Source of the DNA: Thermosipho melanesiensis BI429
GTDB lineage: Bacteria; Thermotogota; Thermotogae; Thermotogales; Fervidobacteriaceae
Assembly: GCF_000016905.1 (NCBI RefSeq)
Contig: NC_009616.1
Coordinates: 1,054,001-1,118,000 of the forward strand
Length of the DNA: 64,000 nt
Reading direction: 5' to 3'
Position 1 is the stretch's first letter. Each line of letters opens with the position of its first letter. Position numbers and translations under genes: made by a program. The notes beneath the pieces are model-generated. The model did no database searches. It saw only the letters and a program-made list of their open reading frames with translations, and was not told the DNA's origin. Positions 48,757 to 60,953 of this stretch are shown one piece after another.

Positions 48757-49341
48757 TTGATAGATACGGATTTCCATGTTACGTCAATTGAGCCAGAAGA
48801 TATTAGGATAGATAATATCAAAAATCCAGGTCCAAAGCTTTTAAAAGAATATTTAAAATATGTAAAAGCAGTTTCGTTAAATGATAAAAAAGGAGCAGAA
48901 GAAATTCTATATTCACTTTCAAATATAAGTTCAAAGGATGAGTTAATATTTGAAAGTGATTTTGAGGAAGAAGTATATGAAAAGCTTAGTCAAAGTAAAA
49001 TAATAAAAGAAGGAAACTTAGAACTTCATACACAAGTTAGTTCATCTGGTTATAGAATTGATATAGGAGTGTATGCTCCTATACAATCAAAGTATATACT
49101 TGGAATAGAATGTGATGGTGCTTTATATCATAGTTCAAAATCAGCAAGAGAAAGAGATATACATAGGCAAAAATTTTTAGAATCAAGAGGTTGGAAGATA
49201 GTAAGGATATGGAGTAGGGATTGGTGGAGTAATCCTGAAAAAGAAATTGAAAAAATTGAAAGTATTCTAGAAAAAATGAATTATGAATTAAACCAGTATA
49301 ATGATGAAAAAATTACTGAAGAACTGCTTACAAATGATTGA
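48757..49341 (+). pseudogene. C-terminal fragment of a helicase with a PD-(D/E)XK-type nuclease domain
   Basis: A 194-residue open frame. The first residues, HVTSIEPEDIRI, match the end of the helicase domain of large DNA2/NAM7-like or DUF4011/DUF3320-type proteins (the S-x-PEDI strand), and the rest is the restriction-endonuclease-like C-terminal domain: LHTQVSSSGYRIDIGVYAP, then GIECDGALYHSSKSARERD and GWKIVRIWSRDWWSNP. The nuclease motif (D, then ECDG, then H) appears intact. The 1,000-plus residues expected upstream are missing. It could still be expressed as a stand-alone nuclease, but truncation is likelier. Confidence 0.7.
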
Positions 49342-52243: not shown

Positions 52244-52275
52244 AAAACCACAGTTTTTCTGTGGTTTTGTTTTTT
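52244..52275 (+). terminator. Rho-independent terminator of galE
   Basis: A 10-bp stem AAAACCACAG / CTGTGGTTTT with loop TTTTT, followed by GTTTTTT. It isolates galE from the next block. Confidence 0.88.
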
Positions 52276-52436: not shown

Positions 52437-53381
52437 ATGAGTAAAATTATTATTTTAAGCGATTTACATATCGGCGATATGTCTGATGCCGATGATTTTT
52501 ATACCTCAGGAAATTTTGAAAAGTTTATATCATTTCTTGAATATATAAAAGATGATGAAGAAGTTGAAAAAATTGTTGTTGCAGGAGATTTTTTTGAGCT
52601 ATGGCAATGTAAAGTGGAAAAGATTTTACAAATGTATGTTGATTTATGGAAAATTTTTCTTAAATTAAAAGAAACAAAAAAAGAGATAATATATATACCA
52701 GGAAACCATGACTCCCTTCCTTTTGCAAAGCTTGTCTATAAGGCAACACCATTTCCTTTTGGCCCTATACAGTTAACAGATAAATACGATGTTGATGAAG
52801 AAAAGAAGTTGATATTCCCATATTTTTCTGTAAATAACCTTTGGATTGAACATGGGCATAGATTTGATAAATATAACAGAGATGTTTCAACACTTGCAGG
52901 TGGCTTTCAAGGTGTACTTGGAAGATTTATAGGTAAGGCAATAGGAGTTATTGAAAGGATGGGGGCAAAGGATATAGATGAACAACTTGAAAGTTTAATG
53001 GATGTAATAAAAGGTGCATGGAAAAAATTAAAAGATAAGTTTTCATCACCGTTTTACAAAATAGCTGGAAATCTTCAGTCATATGTAACACCTGCAAGTA
53101 AAGATTATAGAGGAAACTTTAAAGAATACGATGAAGAAGGTTCAATATTTTTGGGGGAAAAGTTAATTGATAAAGGATATGAAAAGGTATTTGTTGTATT
53201 AGGACATACACATAAACCGAAAGTAGTTCAAATTGACGAAAAAATCATTTATGCAAATTCCGGAAGTTGGGTTGGAAAAGAGCCAACTTTTTGTGTGTTT
53301 GATAGTAAAGAGCAAAGTGTGTCACTTTGTAAGTGGGATGATGGCAAAGCAATACTACTTGGTAAAAAGACGTTTAATTAA
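52437..53381 (+). CDS. calcineurin-like metallophosphoesterase
   Basis: A 314-residue metal-dependent phosphoesterase. Motifs in order: ILSDLHIGD (DxH), VVAGDFFELWQ (GDxxE), IPGNHDSL (GNHD), IEHGHRF and VVLGHTHKPK (GHxH), then NSGSW. The spacing resembles LpxH-like and unclassified phosphoesterases rather than SbcD/Mre11. It could act on nucleic acid or nucleotides. It is followed after 35 bases by a small gene and a zinc-hook ATPase, so the three may work together. The start is ATG 52437 after AGGGG. Confidence 0.85.
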   Translation: MSKIIILSDLHIGDMSDADDFYTSGNFEKFISFLEYIKDDEEVEKIVVAGDFFELWQCKVEKILQMYVDLWKIFLKLKETKKEIIYIPGNHDSLPFAKLVYKATPFPFGPIQLTDKYDVDEEKKLIFPYFSVNNLWIEHGHRFDKYNRDVSTLAGGFQGVLGRFIGKAIGVIERMGAKDIDEQLESLMDVIKGAWKKLKDKFSSPFYKIAGNLQSYVTPASKDYRGNFKEYDEEGSIFLGEKLIDKGYEKVFVVLGHTHKPKVVQIDEKIIYANSGSWVGKEPTFCVFDSKEQSVSLCKWDDGKAILLGKKTFN

Positions 53382-53416
53382 ATTAGAAAGATTGTTATAA
53401 AAAGGAAGTGGAAAAT

Positions 53417-53617
53417 ATGTCTAAACAATTTGAAATTTTAGAGAAAATGATTGAAACATTTGAAGATTCAATCTTTAAAAAATATTTGTTGAGTCTAAGG
53501 AAAGAAGAATTTGGAATAAGCGAAAGAAGAGATTATTTAAGAAGCAAATATGATGAAATTGTAGATTTTTATAAAGCCCATGAAAAGGGTAAAAAATATG
53601 AAAATAAAAACGGTTAA
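53417..53617 (+). CDS. small helical protein between phosphoesterase and ATPase
   Basis: A 66-residue, very charged helical protein, MSKQFEILEKMIETFEDSIF with KKYLLSLRKEEFGISERRDY and a Lys-rich end. No known family. Its 3' end overlaps the ATPase gene by 20 bases, so translation is probably coupled. It could be an adaptor between the phosphoesterase and the ATPase, but this is a guess. I start at ATG 53417; GTG 53408 would be the alternative. Confidence 0.55.
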   Translation: MSKQFEILEKMIETFEDSIFKKYLLSLRKEEFGISERRDYLRSKYDEIVDFYKAHEKGKKYENKNG

Positions 53618-55823
53618 AATTAATGGCATAAGAGGTTTTCAGTATCATGAAGCTCCTCATGTTATTAGTTTAGATTGTAACCATTTCTTTTTGTTTGGAG
53701 AAAATGGGACTGGAAAATTTAGTTTTTTTGATGCCCTTGAATGGGGATTAACTGGTGATGTGAATGAAACAAGAGTAAGAAAAGTGGGCAGCAAACAAGA
53801 ATACTTGCGAAATAAATTTTGCTTGCCTGGTGATGAACCTTACGTTGAAGTTAAATATAAAAACAATAGTAAAGAAGCAACTTGCAAGAGAATTTTGGGA
53901 AGACAGAATGATTGTGAAATAATTGAAGGGATTGAAAACAATTTTATTGATTCTAAACGAATAGAAGAATTTGTTATTGACACAAAACAATCATTGTGGA
54001 ATAGATTTGCAAGGTTACTTGGATTTGATAGTTTGATAAAATTTGAAGAACAATTGAAACGGCTTAGAAATAAAGCAAAAAATGAATATGAAAGTATTAA
54101 AGAAAAGTTAAATGAAAAAAGAAAACAAATAAGAGATATAGAAGAAGAAATTAAAAATTTAGAATTAAGATTAAAAAAAGAGTTAGGGGAAAATTGGAAA
54201 AGCCAGTTGGTGGATAAAGATAAACAAGGTTTATTGGAAACGCTAAACAAGCTGAGGGAAAAAGAAGAGGCTTTAAAAAATTTTGAAAAAACATTTATTG
54301 AAAAAAACAACCTAAAAACTCAGTTGAATAATATTGAAAGTACAAAAGAAATGTTAAAAATTTCAACAAATGAAATACAAATTTCAAGGGTAATTAATGA
54401 AGCGCTCAATTATTTTTATCAAAAAGAAGATATTAATAAGTGTCCAGTTTGTGGCCAGCCAATTGTTTATAAACAAGTACTAAAACGGTTAGAGACTTTA
54501 AAAAAAGATTTAGATAAAATAATTTCTTTAGATAATCAAAAAGAAATTTTGAATAAAAAGTTATCAGATTTAGATTTAAAAGAAAATGAATTAAAGAAAA
54601 AACTTCAAAAATACTATAAGGACATGAGCATATTTGAAAATTCAGAAAAATCGAATTTTATAAAGTATGAAATAGGGCCAACATCAATAGAAGTTAGGAA
54701 GTTAGAAAAACAAATATTCTTATTGGAAGAAAAAGGAAGGTACATGAAAAGCATCGATGATTTAGAAAAACAGGAAGAAGATTTAAAGCAATTAAAAAAT
54801 CAACACTATCTGAAAAAGAAAATATATGAAGATATAGATAAATTTTATACTTTATATTTAACAAAATATGGGAAGACTATTCAAGAGGAATTAGAAAGAA
54901 TAAGCAAAAGTGAAGTTACAAATGTATACAATGAAATTACCCAGGCGAAAAATCAATTTATTGAATACATTGAAATTAAGCCAAACATAGAAAATCATGA
55001 AATAACTTTTAAACTAAAGATTAGGGGTAAAGAAGAATTAGTCGATGCAATAACTTTTTTAAGCACAGGGCATTTAAGATGCTTAGGTTTTGCACTTTTG
55101 ATTGCAAGAGTTAAATTAAATTCAAGTAATGTAAATTTTATAGCAATTGATGACCCAATTTATTCAGTAGACCATGAAAGAAGATATTTTTTAATAAAGT
55201 ATTTAAGAAAGTTAGCAAATGAAGGCTATCAACTTATTATTACAACTTCTGATAGAACTTTTTTTGATATTATTAGGCATCAATTTAATGGAAACTCTTT
55301 TAATGCATACAAAGCTTTTTTGGATGATTACACTGGTTTGGGAACTCAAGAGGCAATTTTGGGTTCAGTAAAAATAAAAGGTTGGCCAAATAATTATATT
55401 GAAAAAGCTGAAGAGCATTTGGAAAATAAGGATTTGAGAGCTGCAGCGTTATATTCTAGGTTAGCTTTAGAAACTGTATTTAGTATGGCAGCGAAAAAAA
55501 TTAAGCTTGAAGTACCTTATGATGAAGTTGAAAAGATAGGAATAAAAGGTTTTAAAGACGCAGGTTTAAAGAAAAAATTAGAAAAAGTATATTGTGACAA
55601 ATTAAAGGAAATTGACCGTCAATTTCAAAGATTAAGTGACAATAGATATTTTGGGCATTTGTTGAATAGTTTTCCACTTAGTCAGGAAGTTCATTTTCCA
55701 CACGATTCAAGAATAAGTTATGGTTATGATGAAATAAGAGATTTAATAGATATTTTGAAAGATTTTACGGACTTTCTTTTAAATTTGATTAATGGAAATA
55801 AAAGAAGTAGAACAAACTGTTAA
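53598..55823 (+). CDS. SMC/RecF-like ATPase with zinc hook
   Basis: A 741-residue AAA_23-type ATPase. The Walker A stretch is FLFGENGTGKFSFFDA at about residues 32 to 47, where the expected Ser/Thr after Lys is F41. Coiled coils span about 140 to 430, with a zinc-hook CPVCGQP at C282 and C285. The ABC signature is FLSTGHLRCLGFALLIARV and the Walker B is FIAIDDPIYSVD. A C-terminal helical domain of about 150 residues follows (EEHLENKDLRAAALYSRLAL) with no clear assignment. The whole resembles Rad50-type and defence ATPases. The start is ATG 53598 after AAAGGG. Confidence 0.82.
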   Translation: MKIKTVKINGIRGFQYHEAPHVISLDCNHFFLFGENGTGKFSFFDALEWGLTGDVNETRVRKVGSKQEYLRNKFCLPGDEPYVEVKYKNNSKEATCKRILGRQNDCEIIEGIENNFIDSKRIEEFVIDTKQSLWNRFARLLGFDSLIKFEEQLKRLRNKAKNEYESIKEKLNEKRKQIRDIEEEIKNLELRLKKELGENWKSQLVDKDKQGLLETLNKLREKEEALKNFEKTFIEKNNLKTQLNNIESTKEMLKISTNEIQISRVINEALNYFYQKEDINKCPVCGQPIVYKQVLKRLETLKKDLDKIISLDNQKEILNKKLSDLDLKENELKKKLQKYYKDMSIFENSEKSNFIKYEIGPTSIEVRKLEKQIFLLEEKGRYMKSIDDLEKQEEDLKQLKNQHYLKKKIYEDIDKFYTLYLTKYGKTIQEELERISKSEVTNVYNEITQAKNQFIEYIEIKPNIENHEITFKLKIRGKEELVDAITFLSTGHLRCLGFALLIARVKLNSSNVNFIAIDDPIYSVDHERRYFLIKYLRKLANEGYQLIITTSDRTFFDIIRHQFNGNSFNAYKAFLDDYTGLGTQEAILGSVKIKGWPNNYIEKAEEHLENKDLRAAALYSRLALETVFSMAAKKIKLEVPYDEVEKIGIKGFKDAGLKKKLEKVYCDKLKEIDRQFQRLSDNRYFGHLLNSFPLSQEVHFPHDSRISYGYDEIRDLIDILKDFTDFLLNLINGNKRSRTNC

Positions 55824-55920
55824 TCTATGAGTTTTCCTATACAATGCAAAATATAGATTGAATTTGTTAATTTCAAATAGTTTTTAATGGTTTTAAATTA
55901 TTTTGCGGGAGGTGGTAATT

Positions 55921-56223
55921 GTGGAAGAAACAATTTGTAAAGCAATTAAGGAGAGAAAAATAATCAAATTTTATTATAAAGGTTATTTAAGAATTGTTGA
56001 ACCCTATGCATATGGTGTTCATAAAAGTACATATAACAAAATTCTTAGAGCTTTTCAAATAGCTGGTGGAAGTTCATCGGGGGAAGTAGTAGATTGGAAA
56101 CTTTTTGTTGTTGATGAAATATCTCTTCTTACTATTACAAATGAACAATTTAGTGTTAGACCAGAATATACGCTAAATGATTCGGCGATGGGGCAAATTA
56201 TTTGTCAGGTTTTATTAGGATAA
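55921..56223 (+). CDS. WYL-domain-like protein
   Basis: A 100-residue protein with the pattern of a WYL domain: KAIKERKIIKFYYKGYLRIV, then EPYAYGVHKSTYNKILRAFQ and DWKLFVVDEISLLTI. WYL domains bind nucleic acid or nucleotides and often regulate defence islands. There is no helix-turn-helix attached, so it is WYL only. The start is GTG 55921 after GGGAGGTGGTAATT; the longer TTG 55903 is before that site. It lies 97 bases after the zinc-hook ATPase. Confidence 0.75.
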   Translation: MEETICKAIKERKIIKFYYKGYLRIVEPYAYGVHKSTYNKILRAFQIAGGSSSGEVVDWKLFVVDEISLLTITNEQFSVRPEYTLNDSAMGQIICQVLLG

Positions 56224-56305
56224 ATTGATGAATGTAGAATTAACTTGCTATTTCATAAATTTTCAAACGAAAGAATAGGGAAAAATTATTACAGAGGTGA
56301 ATAAA

Positions 56306-58156
56306 ATGAAAATAGCTAAAGTGATTTTAGAGAATTTTAGAGCATTTTATGGACGTAATGAAATACCTATTGAAGATTTTACAGTTTTTATTGGACGTAA
56401 TGATCAGGGAAAGTCTACGATTTTAGAAGCTATTGACATTTTTATAAACGATGGGAAAGGGGTAACAAAAATAGAGGAAAATGATTTAAACATTAAAGCA
56501 AAAAATGAAGGAAATGAAATTTTTAAAATAGGTGTTTGTTTTAAAGATTTACCTGAAAATATTGTTATCGATGCTACAAATACTACAACTCTTCAAAATG
56601 AGTATTTACTAAGCAAAGAAGGTTTTCTTGAAATTTATAAAGTCTTTAAAAATGGGAAATTACAAAATAAGGAGACATATATAAGATGTATGCATCCGGC
56701 AAATGATAGTTTTTTAGAAGGCCTTTTAAAGAAAAAGATTACTGAATTGCAAAATTTTGTAAGAGAGAAAGGGCCAGATTGTTTGGATCTTAGAAAAAGT
56801 GCTGAACTGCGAAAATGTATAAGAGATTATTATAAAAGTAAGGATGGCGATCTAGTGTTAAAAGAAATTGATTTAAAAATAAACGAAGAAGGAATGAAGG
56901 ATATATGGCTGCAGTTAGAAAAGTGTTTGCCTATTTTTTCTTTATTTCACTCTGATAGGCCAAATACTGAACAAGATAGTGAAATACAAGATCCGTTAAA
57001 AACTAAGGTAGATGAGATATTTAAAAGAGAGGATATTCAAAATAAATTGGAAGAAATTGCTAAAGAAATTGATGAAGAATTAAAAAAGATTGCTAATGCT
57101 ACTGTGGAAAAATTCAGAGAATTAAGCCAACAGGATACAGAAATAAAACCCAATATACCAGAGGTTGGGAAGTTAAGATGGAAAGATGTTTACAAAGGAA
57201 TAGGTTACAATACTGATAACGATATACCACTTAATAAGCGAGGAAGTGGATTAAGGCGTTTAGTGCTTGTTAGTTCCTTTTTGGCCGAAATTAAAGCTCA
57301 AAATGAATCAGAAGATAATTTAAATGTAATTTATGCGATTGAAGAACCTGAAACTGGTTTGCATCCAGAAATGCAGAAAACATTGATTAATAATCTAATT
57401 AAGCTTTCTAAAAATGGCAAACATCAGATATTAATTACAACACATAGTCCTGCTTTAATAAGATTTTTTGAAACAGATAGTGTGAGATATGTTGAGCAAG
57501 AAAATGGCAAAGCAAAAGTTTATCTTTTCGATGAAAATATAGGAGGCAAAATAGTTAAAGAACTTGGATTATTGCCTAACATTGGAAAAGTTGTAATATG
57601 TGTTGAAGGTACAAATGATAAGAATTTTTTAATGAACATAAACCAAAATATACCTGAACTAATGGAAATTATAGATTTGAAAGAGAAAATTGAAAGTGGA
57701 TTAATTTCAATAATTCCAATGCAGGGAAGCAATTTAAATGAATGGATAGATTGTTATGCTTTAAAAAACACAAATGTTGTAGAATTTCATTTGTATGATC
57801 GCGATTGTGATGAGAAATATAAAAAAGCTGTTGAAGAAGTGAATCAACGTAAAGACGGTTCTTATGGAGTATTAACCACAAAAAGAGAGATTGAAAACTA
57901 TATTCCAAGAAGACTTATTGAAGGAAGTTTAAATATAAAAATAGAATTGGACGACTGGGACAATATAGATATTCCAAAAAAAGTTAAAGAAAAAGTGACC
58001 AGATTTAGTGATGAAAAAGATGTAAAGAATTATTTGTGTGGCTCATTGTCTAAAAAAATTACAAAAAAAGATTTGGAAGATTTGAATGCTTGGGATGAAG
58101 TAAAAAGCTGGTTTGAAAAGATAAAAGAGCTTTGTTCAAAAAGTTTTGACCATTAA
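56306..58156 (+). CDS. OLD-family ATP-dependent endonuclease (ATPase plus TOPRIM)
   Basis: A 616-residue protein. The ABC-type ATPase half has VFIGRNDQGKST (K36), the signature LNKRGSGLRRLVLVSSFLAE, Walker B VIYAIEEPETGLHPEM and the H-loop ILITTHSPAL. The TOPRIM half carries E434 in VICVEGTNDKNF, D498 and D500 in LYDRDCDEKY, and the C-terminal KREIENYIPRRLI motif, so the nuclease looks intact. OLD/GajA proteins cut DNA and act in phage defence. No GajB-type helicase or PARIS-type partner is adjacent. The start is ATG 56306 after GAGGTG. Confidence 0.86.
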   Translation: MKIAKVILENFRAFYGRNEIPIEDFTVFIGRNDQGKSTILEAIDIFINDGKGVTKIEENDLNIKAKNEGNEIFKIGVCFKDLPENIVIDATNTTTLQNEYLLSKEGFLEIYKVFKNGKLQNKETYIRCMHPANDSFLEGLLKKKITELQNFVREKGPDCLDLRKSAELRKCIRDYYKSKDGDLVLKEIDLKINEEGMKDIWLQLEKCLPIFSLFHSDRPNTEQDSEIQDPLKTKVDEIFKREDIQNKLEEIAKEIDEELKKIANATVEKFRELSQQDTEIKPNIPEVGKLRWKDVYKGIGYNTDNDIPLNKRGSGLRRLVLVSSFLAEIKAQNESEDNLNVIYAIEEPETGLHPEMQKTLINNLIKLSKNGKHQILITTHSPALIRFFETDSVRYVEQENGKAKVYLFDENIGGKIVKELGLLPNIGKVVICVEGTNDKNFLMNINQNIPELMEIIDLKEKIESGLISIIPMQGSNLNEWIDCYALKNTNVVEFHLYDRDCDEKYKKAVEEVNQRKDGSYGVLTTKREIENYIPRRLIEGSLNIKIELDDWDNIDIPKKVKEKVTRFSDEKDVKNYLCGSLSKKITKKDLEDLNAWDEVKSWFEKIKELCSKSFDH

Positions 58157-58302: not shown

Positions 58303-59343
58303 GTGAAAAATGGTCATATAGAGTATTTAAAATCGTTATTGACAAATGTTGACATAAAAGGATATTTAAGACATAGGGAAAGTTCAACCCTTGAGTTTAA
58401 AGAAAAGTTTGGATTTGGGAGCATAGAGCATTATGCTAAAACAATGGCTGCATTTGCCAATAACAAAGGCGGGTATATAATTTTTGGTATAAAAGACAGT
58501 CCAAGGTTGCTAGTAGGAATAAATCGGAAAAAATTCAATGAAATTAGTCAAGAAAAACTTACTGGTTTTTTAATTGAATATTTTTCGCCTGAAATAAAAT
58601 GGGAAATGGGTATTGTGGATATTGGAGAAAAATCCTTTGGTTATATATTTGTTAATGAGTCTTTAGAAAAACCGGTGATTTGCAGAAAAGCTAAGGAAAA
58701 GTTGAAGTCTGGAGAGATTTATTATCGGTATAGAGGTCAAACAAGAAAAATAGAATTTTCTGAGTTAAGAAAAATTATAGAAGAATACAGAGAAAGAGAA
58801 AGACAATATTGGATGAAGCTTATTGAAAGAATAGCAAAAATTGGTCCAACAAATATTGCATTAGTGGATTTATTAAATGGAAGTATTGAAACTACTAGAA
58901 TATCAGGCAAGCAACTTGTCATAGATAAGTCGCTTTTAAATGAGTTAGCAGAAAAAATTAATTTTATTGAAAAAGGTCATTTTGTTGAAACTAGCGGTGA
59001 AACCGCATTAAAAGTTGTAGGGGAAATACAAGTTGCGAATAAAATAATTGTTCCTGATTTAGACCCAAATAAAGATTATCCTTATTTGCAAAAAAAGTTG
59101 GCTGAAATGCTAGGAATAAAGCCGTATTATGTACAGGTATTGGTATGGAAATACAAATTGAAAGGTGACAAAAGATATCATTTAAAATTAGAATGTGGGA
59201 AAAATAAGATTCATAAATTTTCTAAATATGCCTATGAAAAGTTGAAAAGTGAGCTCGAAAAATTGTCAGAGAGTGATTTAAAGCAATTTTCACATGAATA
59301 TGAAAAGTTTAAAAGAGGAAATAAGCTTAGTACACCAGGCTAG
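58303..59343 (+). CDS. AlbA_2/Schlafen-domain protein
   Basis: A 346-residue protein. The first 160 residues form an AlbA_2 (AAA_4, Schlafen-like) domain with ESSTLEFKEKFGFGSIEHYA, then KTMAAFANNKGGYIIFGIKD and later SGEIYYRYRGQTRKIEFSEL. The catalytic E-x-K residues are retained, so a nucleic-acid-cleaving role is possible. The C-terminal half (about 190 to 346) is of unknown type, with a PYLQKKLAEMLGIKPYYVQV segment that resembles a winged-helix. The start is GTG 58303. The gene stands alone in a defence-rich neighbourhood. Confidence 0.78.
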   Translation: MKNGHIEYLKSLLTNVDIKGYLRHRESSTLEFKEKFGFGSIEHYAKTMAAFANNKGGYIIFGIKDSPRLLVGINRKKFNEISQEKLTGFLIEYFSPEIKWEMGIVDIGEKSFGYIFVNESLEKPVICRKAKEKLKSGEIYYRYRGQTRKIEFSELRKIIEEYRERERQYWMKLIERIAKIGPTNIALVDLLNGSIETTRISGKQLVIDKSLLNELAEKINFIEKGHFVETSGETALKVVGEIQVANKIIVPDLDPNKDYPYLQKKLAEMLGIKPYYVQVLVWKYKLKGDKRYHLKLECGKNKIHKFSKYAYEKLKSELEKLSESDLKQFSHEYEKFKRGNKLSTPG

Positions 59344-59612: not shown

Positions 59613-60953
59613 ATGAACACAATAACTTCCAAAACTTATAATAAGATTATAGATATTATTAAAAATAACGTTAATATGGTTATTGACGAAATTTCTGAAT
59701 TAGAAAATATATTAGAAAACTTGCCTAAAAATAAAGTGGTGTGCATTAATAATAGTTTCTTTTATAGGAAAGATTTTGTAAAAACTTCTAAAAATTCGAA
59801 ATACCTTTGTTTTTCAAAAGAAGATAATAAAGTAAAAGTTTTTATTGGAAAGCTTCAAAATGACATAAAAAAGGACTGGGTAGCTTTTGATAGCAAACAG
59901 ATTTCGAAAATAGATTTAGAGTTGGCAGTTAGAAGAGAACTTAAAGTAATTGGTGATATAGTTTTTATTCTTATAGGAAATTTGGAAGAAGTTTCAAGTG
60001 AAGTTGAATTAGAATTTAGAAAAGCAAAAAGATTAAAGTATGACCCTTCAATTAAAGAAGAGATTTATATAGAAGAAATTGATAAAAAAGGTAATTTCAA
60101 TTGCATAGTAAATTCGCTTGTTTATTCTGAGAGATTGTTAGAAAACATTGGTAGAGAAATTTTAAAGGCATTGAATGAAGAATTTAATGAAGATAATAAG
60201 AAAAATATTAGAAATAAAGTTACAAAAGCATTTGATAAACTTGTTAAAAAAGCACATATAAAGTTGGTATTACCAGGAAGTCGTGAGGATAGTGATTTTT
60301 CAAATAGCTTAATAAGTAAGATGATTTTGTCATTTGAAAGTCAACTACAAAAGTATGAAAATAGTTTAAATAAATATTTTTATTCAAAAAAGAAAGAAGA
60401 AAAGGAAAGAGGATTAATTGAACTATTGAGATTATCTTATTCGTTTGCTGATGATTCAATTAAATTATTAAAATTGCTTGTGACAATTACTGATCTTAAA
60501 CCTTTGATTTTATGGTGCACACTTTTTGATTTTTATAAATTGAAAGAAGAATTTAGTAAAATACCATTTATTTTAAAAGGTAATCAAAAAAAGCCGTCTT
60601 TAAAAGATTACAGAGAAATTGTTGCTAGTGTTAGAAATTTTGCTTTTCATCGTTTTTTCTTAATTGATAAACCAATAGAAGCAGATTTAACAAATATTAA
60701 ATTAAATGCTAAAAGGCTTAGATTTTTTGGATATCATAGTGGAAATAAAAAGACAACTCGAAATTTAGAATATCAAGATCAAGAAATTGTCGAGGCTCTT
60801 CAAGAGTTTACTACTACAACCAAAAGTGATATTTCAGATGATTTTTGGGAAAAGAATCTGAATATCATGAAGAGTATGGAGAATTTATTAAAATCAATGG
60901 AAGAGATTCTGTGGGTTGTTTTCGAAATGAGATATCAAATATCAGAAAATTAA
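59613..60953 (+). CDS. putative HEPN-type ribonuclease
   Basis: A 446-residue, largely helical protein of unknown family. A HEPN-like motif RNFAFH (R341 to H346) sits inside the helix VASVRNFAFHRFFLIDKP, matching the catalytic R-polar-xxx-H pattern of HEPN ribonucleases. The N-terminal 120 residues have mixed strands and helices, and a basic helical region with LVKKAHIKLVLPGSRED follows. The KAP-family NTPase starts 67 bases downstream on the same strand without a terminator between, so the two are probably one unit. Assignment rests on this single motif and context. The start is ATG 59613 after AGGGGGGA. Confidence 0.55.
   Translation: MNTITSKTYNKIIDIIKNNVNMVIDEISELENILENLPKNKVVCINNSFFYRKDFVKTSKNSKYLCFSKEDNKVKVFIGKLQNDIKKDWVAFDSKQISKIDLELAVRRELKVIGDIVFILIGNLEEVSSEVELEFRKAKRLKYDPSIKEEIYIEEIDKKGNFNCIVNSLVYSERLLENIGREILKALNEEFNEDNKKNIRNKVTKAFDKLVKKAHIKLVLPGSREDSDFSNSLISKMILSFESQLQKYENSLNKYFYSKKKEEKERGLIELLRLSYSFADDSIKLLKLLVTITDLKPLILWCTLFDFYKLKEEFSKIPFILKGNQKKPSLKDYREIVASVRNFAFHRFFLIDKPIEADLTNIKLNAKRLRFFGYHSGNKKTTRNLEYQDQEIVEALQEFTTTTKSDISDDFWEKNLNIMKSMENLLKSMEEILWVVFEMRYQISEN

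Follow-up and report, generated by a model that had tools for sequence, protein, structure and literature searches.

A small helical protein and a Rad50-like ATPase form a conserved module that a metallophosphoesterase gene accompanies in Thermosipho

Do a metallophosphoesterase (MPE), a small helical protein and a zinc-hook ATPase encoded side by side in Thermosipho melanesiensis BI429 work together as an Mre11–Rad50-like machine, and which of the three belong together? The genes lie in a stretch of 64,000 nucleotides (the window; NC_009616.1, positions 1,054,001 to 1,118,000) of a genome (G000) that is a single contig of 1,915,238 bp. A first-pass annotation proposed the MPE as the nuclease partner of the ATPase and the small protein as their adaptor, in a defence or repair role. 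We find instead that the conserved core is the small protein with the ATPase, and that the MPE looks like an optional local partner. The features concerned, with their open reading frames (ORFs), are as follows.

52244-52268, + strand: terminator-like hairpin with a T tail, between the galE-like upstream gene and the trio
52437-53381, + strand: MPE gene, 314 amino acids (aa), LpxH/Mre11-like fold
53417-53617, + strand: ORF of the small helical protein, 66 aa from its ATG, with an in-frame GTG also 9 nt upstream
53598-55823, + strand: Rad50-like ATPase gene, 741 aa, with an in-frame ATG also at 53580

The three genes form a real operon. They follow one another on the same strand in the order MPE, small gene, ATPase, with a 35-nt spacer after the MPE gene and a 20-bp overlap between the other two, so the order and overlap first described are borne out by the coordinates. 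The motifs DLHIGD, GDFFELW, GNHD and GHTH of the MPE and CPVC of the ATPase are likewise all present as claimed, and Pfam places the MPE in Metallophos (8.9e-13) and the ATPase in AAA_23 (1.6e-8). The operon probably starts after the hairpin, 168 nt past which the MPE begins; the hairpin lends weak support, as three such elements were found in the region against 1.6 expected from shuffles, and a promoter scan gave results at chance level.

The case for a two-gene core comes from distant ATPase relatives, taken from plasmids and other genomes (haloarchaea, alphaproteobacteria, Bacteroidota and others; six examined out of 11 records in the first set). By script count, 22/22 unfused loci have a small ORF that runs 4-32 nt into the ATPase gene, compared with 14/131 of the remaining large ORFs in that DNA. 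This 22/22 exceeds what a random sample would be expected to give because 13 plasmid loci were chosen from lists of 47 and 30 records, and in most of these the annotation at the match mentioned a ‘hypothetical protein’ from the outset; no such feature entered the choice of genome loci L084-L087 and L094. In nine other homologues (L039, L041, L043, L058-L062 and L064), Walker A is shifted inwards by about 80 residues and the small gene is absent, save for a chance-looking ORF in L058; the small protein is apparently fused as an N-terminal extension of the ATPase in these lineages. We rejected the proposed adaptor role in view of the loci in which the small protein accompanies the ATPase and the MPE is absent.

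A family profile built from 25 members, none of them from Thermosipho (remote L069 and G184 and truncated L094 were excluded), aligns with the window ATPase over its full length (229 bits) and scores the three Thermosipho ATPases at 227-241 bits. Other proteins fall far below this: an ABC-3C (Lamassu-type) ATPase reaches 68 bits, a canonical Rad50 of the Thermosipho family 38 and the OLD protein of the window 15. The window module fits the family pattern of a small ORF or N-terminal extension, a CPxC hook, a DD Walker B and a HEPN-like tail.

A shuffle test supports a sequence relationship among the small proteins of the haloarchaeal, alphaproteobacterial and G144/G157/G238/Aliiroseovarius groups, in which 0/200 shuffles scored as high for each of 16 proteins; homology of the Bacteroidota small proteins to the others was not supported in the shuffle test. 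Within Thermosipho, the window and G003 copies of the small gene differ at 7 first, 4 second and 2 third positions out of 65 each; in the same pair, the MPE and ATPase genes carry 10 to 37 third-position differences per 66-codon window. This third-position conservation leaves the small ORF with a weak coding signature in Thermosipho. We nonetheless take it as real because its frame is intact in 4/4 copies and the same arrangement recurs elsewhere. Judged by third positions and the spacer, the whole of 53379-53617, small gene and upstream spacer, is far more conserved than the adjoining genes. The small gene has no alternative frame that stays open in each of the four copies, and its predicted RNA folding is unremarkable (z -1.37 to 0.13 on two strands in three copies). 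The pattern could reflect a recombination tract or a constraint at the DNA level.

The ATPase was aligned with its homologues (31 members, L088 of G023 being excluded), and its parts are as follows.

53697-53723, + strand: Walker A, GENGTGKFS, with Phe41 encoded by TTT at 53718-53720
54441-54452, + strand: zinc hook, CPVC, from the alignment
55059-55073, + strand: ABC signature, LSTGH, from the alignment
55146-55157, + strand: Walker B, IDDP, from the alignment
55362-55820, + strand: C-terminal HEPN-like domain, residues 589-741

The Walker A region and ABC signature were found in 31/31 members, Walker B reads DD in 31/31 (no DE and no E-to-Q), and the CPxC hook occurs in 30/31, G184 having CVLC. 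Two features were absent from the first-pass annotation, the tail at 55362-55820 and the change to GENGTGKF in Walker A. The C-terminal domain matches the profile of the other members at 31.2 bits (best of 500 shuffles, 7.5), and its 153 residues, modelled from seven sequences, gave a pLDDT of 78.1 and a pTM of 0.75. The top seven VIA matches to this model are all HEPN folds (Z 10.9-8.9 over 113-124 residues, rmsd 3.1-4.3), namely five entries named HEPN together with 2q00 and 2jpu, which are one protein; the next is Roquin (Z 7.9). Helical bundles at times reach comparable Z by chance, and we therefore call the tail only ‘HEPN-like’, an assignment that the model leaves well supported, although not proven. 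His699 is invariant in one alignment (A7), and Asn precedes it in most members. PMC3710099 counts 2q00 among HEPN structures.

Because of this tail, the ATPase is RloC-like rather than SbcC-like in anatomy. PMC3874168 and PMC3710099 describe RloC as carrying a Rad50-like head, a zinc hook and a C-terminal HEPN-type domain in one chain and as responding to DNA breaks. The module shares with RloC and PrrC, whose HEPN domain is an anticodon nuclease, the Rad50-like ATPase with a C-terminal HEPN-type fold, and with RloC the zinc hook, but differs in having a separate small protein or N-terminal extension, in the HEPN arginine, which is not conserved, and in the nuclease genes found upstream in some lineages. 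Against AAA_13 (PF13166), which we take to be the family standing for PrrC/RloC, the window ATPase scores 21.8 bits (cut-off 36), and its relative in L044 passes with 47.9.

The trio also recalls Lamassu, in which case the MPE would correspond to LmuA, the small protein to LmuC and the ATPase to LmuB. The best PADLOC matches of the ATPase are LmuB models (1.4e-30, 104 bits; 1.9e-25), and the Lamassu order of effector, small gene and ATPase given in section 9 of the review PMC10586767 matches that of the trio; both arrangements, like ABC-3C, combine a compact zinc-hook ATPase, a small middle gene and an exchangeable upstream enzyme. We nevertheless consider a Lamassu-type system very improbable and did not adopt it. 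The 104 bits of LmuB compare with 229 for the ATPase's own family profile, and the DD Walker B contrasts with the Glu-to-Gln change said to hold generally for LmuB in section 9 of that review, which does not place an MPE among the LmuA effectors. In addition, the ATPase has a HEPN tail, and the small protein, a short and fast-evolving sequence, matches 0 PADLOC families. Many module loci lack an upstream enzyme, and an MPE or GIY-YIG protein would be the effector where there is one; in the one ABC-3C locus examined (L042), the middle protein is far larger than 66 aa. DndD–DndE and PbeC are a further comparison, as PMC10853773 describes CxC coiled-coil ABC ATPases regularly tied to a small DNA-binding protein. 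The likeness lies in a coiled-coil ABC ATPase with a small partner; however, the window ATPase reaches only 34 bits against the DndD model, its small gene lies upstream and overlaps, and no Dnd genes are named among the neighbours seen.

How closely the MPE is bound to this core was assessed in 198 relatives, with wider profile searches over 390 genomes. The ATPase occurs in 4/198 relatives, whole in G000, G003 and G010 and as a 70-71-residue remnant in G001, where it follows the MPE and small genes. The suggested check of co-occurrence in other genomes thus returned the full trio, in order, in G003 and G010, with identities to the window of 77/74% (MPE), 83/83% (small protein) and 67/67% (ATPase), and a truncated ATPase in G001. 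The MPE is matched in 9/198 at E 1e-15: whole in G000, G001, G003, G010 and G080, as N-terminal fragments in G002 (two) and G014, and as a rearranged piece in G059; a weak match in G085 falls in a different 467-residue frame. Across the 390 genomes, the wider profiles detect the ATPase in 10, the MPE in 8 and both in 4. A scan of genome contigs with the ATPase alone found no relative, and the ATPase had no match in phage records. With dN/dS of about 0.11-0.15 for the MPE and 0.24-0.28 for the ATPase, both genes look to be under purifying selection.

The MPE retains a metallophosphoesterase active site. D9-H11, D51, N90-H91-D92, H139/H141 and H257/H259 are invariant in the five full-length copies, and the motif residues are also kept in six phage-contig relatives aligned with two whole copies; the ORF starts listed near seven phage-contig MPEs (23-34% identity) include no ATPase of this kind. 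The model of the MPE (pLDDT 57.6, pTM 0.61) falls below a pLDDT of 50 over residues 93-126, 142-178 and 201-241, which limits its use for recognising Mre11-type capping and Rad50-binding domains. VIA ranks LpxH first (Z 14.8 over 202 residues, rmsd 3.8), with polymerase zeta/delta B subunits up to Z 13.9, Mre11 at 12.7 and SbcD at 12.2; with Foldseek, a purple acid phosphatase heads the list and SbcD comes twelfth. The modelled fold leaves the substrate undecided, and a PDB sequence search with the MPE profile found nothing. Although LpxH (UDP-2,3-diacylglucosamine hydrolase) is the closest VIA fold, the MPE scores 15 bits against TIGR01854 (cut-off 190), and LpxC is absent from the window genome (the control was found in 4/14 genomes), which makes a lipid A role unlikely and led us to reject the MPE as a lipid A enzyme.

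Other enzymes occupy the same place elsewhere. A motif scan found the MPE in 4/34 loci (G003, G010, G001 and G080, the last without the ATPase) and in none of the other 30; going by these sequences, the MPE as a third gene is specific to Thermotogota. G144 and G157 encode a GIY-YIG protein upstream, with a 4-nt overlap into the small gene, and a protein 39-47% identical to these, called GIY-YIG in its record, lies divergently beside the Aliiroseovarius module. All three adjoin a small protein and ATPase module and share 39-59% mutual identity:

L084, 9321-9839: GIY-YIG protein linked to the module
L085, 8773-9234: GIY-YIG protein linked to the module
L044, 4309-4758: GIY-YIG protein linked to the module

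The motif GLYFI...YIG...R...H of the G144 and G157 proteins was read from the sequence; Pfam GIY-YIG scores 17.1 of the required 22.4 bits for G144 and does not register in the other two. On a Bradyrhizobium plasmid, the gene of a GmrSD_N protein stops 33 nt before the module, and the Halorhabdus record annotates a BREX-5 cluster in which the module is flanked by pglX and pglZ. Because a GIY-YIG gene is coupled at the position of the MPE in two distant genomes, an exchangeable upstream nuclease slot is likely. In Rhizobium etli, the protein upstream of the module (L097, 4178-4687) carries FRYRNNLFHG, which resembles a HEPN motif by eye and has no Pfam hit.

We hypothesize that the small protein and the Rad50-like HEPN ATPase are a mobile defence module to which Thermosipho adds an MPE activity gated by the ATPase, a reading that we hold to be about evenly poised between right and wrong. 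The zinc-hook ABC ATPase, which carries a C-terminal HEPN-like domain of its own, would dimerise and sense aberrant DNA such as ends, hairpins or replication structures, and the small helical protein would be its regular subunit. In Thermosipho relatives, the MPE, co-expressed from just upstream, would most likely provide an ATPase-gated nuclease or nucleotide-hydrolase activity. GIY-YIG proteins probably play an MPE-like part for relatives of the module. The sequences themselves show the order and overlap of the genes, their conservation, their domains and the exchange of the upstream gene; from complex formation and DNA sensing to the enzymatic activities and a role against phages or plasmids, the remaining steps are what we infer for the module.

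Partnership of the MPE with the ATPase, as first proposed, stands only in part. Each of the four Thermosipho-family genomes that retain at least part of the ATPase has the MPE too, directly upstream of the pair, 19-55 nt from the small gene; the outer flanks of the trio in G010 are unlike those in G000 and G003, and GIY-YIG proteins occupy the same position elsewhere. The partnership is not obligate, however, as 6/10 ATPase-positive genomes among the 390 have no MPE hit and 4/8 MPE-positive genomes no ATPase hit. An alternative is that the MPE acts on its own in defence or nucleotide metabolism, that the pair is complete alone, and that co-transcription is an island accident fixed in one family. 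The absence of the MPE from the 30 other loci fits this, as do the truncated copies in G002 (two places) and G014, whose N-terminal parts run into other defence-type genes as if at an island edge. We regard it as a possible explanation, although a rather unlikely one, given the constant upstream position, the differing flanks of G010 and the fact that the MPE-positive, ATPase-negative genomes G002, G014 and G059 hold broken MPEs only.

Several observations weigh against a gated MPE and a HEPN-bearing defence module. In G080, an intact MPE stands without the ATPase, beside RAMP/Cas10-like (CRISPR type III) and DUF6119 genes; these neighbours are not lipid A genes, and the case that the first-pass annotation named as refuting its proposal is borne out only in part. 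The MPE of G001 is also intact although its ATPase is lost to a remnant; both cases favour an independent enzyme. Of the 22 non-window loci, 12 lack an upstream ORF of at least 120 aa within 130 nt, so the module does not require a nuclease. Homology of the Thermosipho small protein to other small proteins was not demonstrable (10/200 shuffles as high), nor, in the shuffle test, was that of the N-terminal extensions taken together, and their equivalence therefore rests on position, not sequence. The HEPN catalytic arginine is not conserved, being present in some members only, and Foldseek gives E of 0.1 to 1.4 for its top seven chains, which come from the same HEPN set. Finally, the residue after the Walker A lysine, which binds the Mg of Mg-ATP, is Ser or Thr in the other 30 aligned homologues and Phe41 in the window only. 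Because of this replacement, the window ATPase may not hydrolyse ATP, and its sequence suggests a copy that is not working normally and is possibly crippled.

Pieces of the MPE gene occur at four further places:

L022, 9327-10957: MPE fragment or rearrangement locus
L021, 7620-9889: MPE fragment or rearrangement locus
L023, 4866-6072: MPE fragment or rearrangement locus
L024, 1429-1849: MPE fragment or rearrangement locus

Its 5′ parts (about 102, 160 and 151 codons) are joined to unlike genes, RES-HEPN, OLD-TOPRIM and Clp-protease-like, and G059 retains codons 1-40 and 210-314 only. Turnover of these islands seems to have broken the MPE gene repeatedly.

The neighbourhood of the trio itself looks like a defence island, and genes around MPE loci include OLD, Schlafen, SIR2, RES-HEPN and CRISPR. 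Downstream of the trio are the following genes.

55903-56223, + strand: weak WYL-like protein, with no tblastn match in the G003 or G010 loci
56297-58156, + strand: OLD/AriA-like ATPase, an island neighbour
58303-59343, + strand: Schlafen AlbA_2 protein, an island neighbour
59613-60953, + strand: 446-aa protein with no Pfam, PADLOC, NCBIfam or PHROG match

In G003, G010 and G014, relatives of the 446-aa protein follow defence-type cargo that differs between the genomes. At 48757-49341, the window encodes a solitary protein with an MTES_1575-type REase domain, which resembles the nuclease part of the anti-phage proteins Hhe/ProA. In G003, the OLD-like gene is broken across two frames (L017, 5832-7559), indicating that island decay is under way.

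Does the trio instead replace Mre11–Rad50 in DNA repair, with the MPE as nuclease and the ATPase as Rad50? Canonical Mre11 was undetected in 3/3 genomes with an intact trio (G000, G003 and G010), with which the SbcD model agrees, and was found in 12/17 other genomes of the family; G001 and G002, of the same genus and without an intact trio, carry an Mre11–Rad50 operon beside a PhoU-like gene. The MPE adjoins a CxxC zinc-hook ATPase on the same strand, and the folds are held in common, Mre11 being among the MPE fold matches. Yet Mre11 is also unmatched in five genomes without an intact trio (G006, G007, G012, G014 and G019, the last 60% complete), so its loss needs no trio. The site of the PhoU-like gene has no match to Mre11 or Rad50 in G000, G003, G010, G006 and G014, and Rad50 has no match at 1e-10 in the same five genomes. 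By counting, the one-sided probability of the exclusion is 0.049, a post hoc value uncorrected for kinship, and the occurrence of the trio in genomes without canonical Mre11 is a lead rather than a finding. The HEPN tail and the island setting favour defence over repair, and one of the three intact trios has an altered Walker A; a functional replacement is thus, in our view, highly doubtful.

Membership of the canonical SbcCD family was rejected on the family scores. The MPE reaches 29.9-30.1 bits against the SbcD model TIGR00619 (cut-off 77.65, which the canonical Mre11 of G001 also misses at 62.6), so that the earlier view of it as not SbcD-like holds at the family level. The ATPase scores 21.9 bits against the Rad50/SbcC equivalog PRK03918 (cut-off 700) and lower against others; it has 741 aa, compared with 932 in the Rad50 of G001, and a HEPN tail. 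Comparison with Mre11–Rad50 may, by analogy, describe what the trio works like, not the family to which it belongs.

The literature search, which covered titles, the openings of abstracts and selected passages, returned no description of an MPE beside such an ATPase or of the two-gene family; the main classification of ABC ATPases (Krishnan et al. 2020, cited in PMC12839542) lay outside this search and may hold one. We claim no priority for the family.

These results point to a conserved two-gene family, carried on plasmids and in bacterial and archaeal defence islands, whose members go under the labels ‘AAA family ATPase’ and ‘hypothetical protein’. More speculatively, and we would not bet on it, the module could be a widespread immune platform in which a Rad50–HEPN ATPase and its tiny subunit take an exchangeable upstream nuclease (MPE in Thermotogota, GIY-YIG elsewhere, GmrSD-type on the Bradyrhizobium plasmid), with an Mre11–Rad50-like machine rebuilt in Thermosipho relatives that lack the canonical pair. 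The module gives a testable picture of Rad50-type DNA sensors coupled to different enzymes. If the ATPase does gate the MPE, the partnering of nucleases to Rad50-like ATPases would have arisen more than once.

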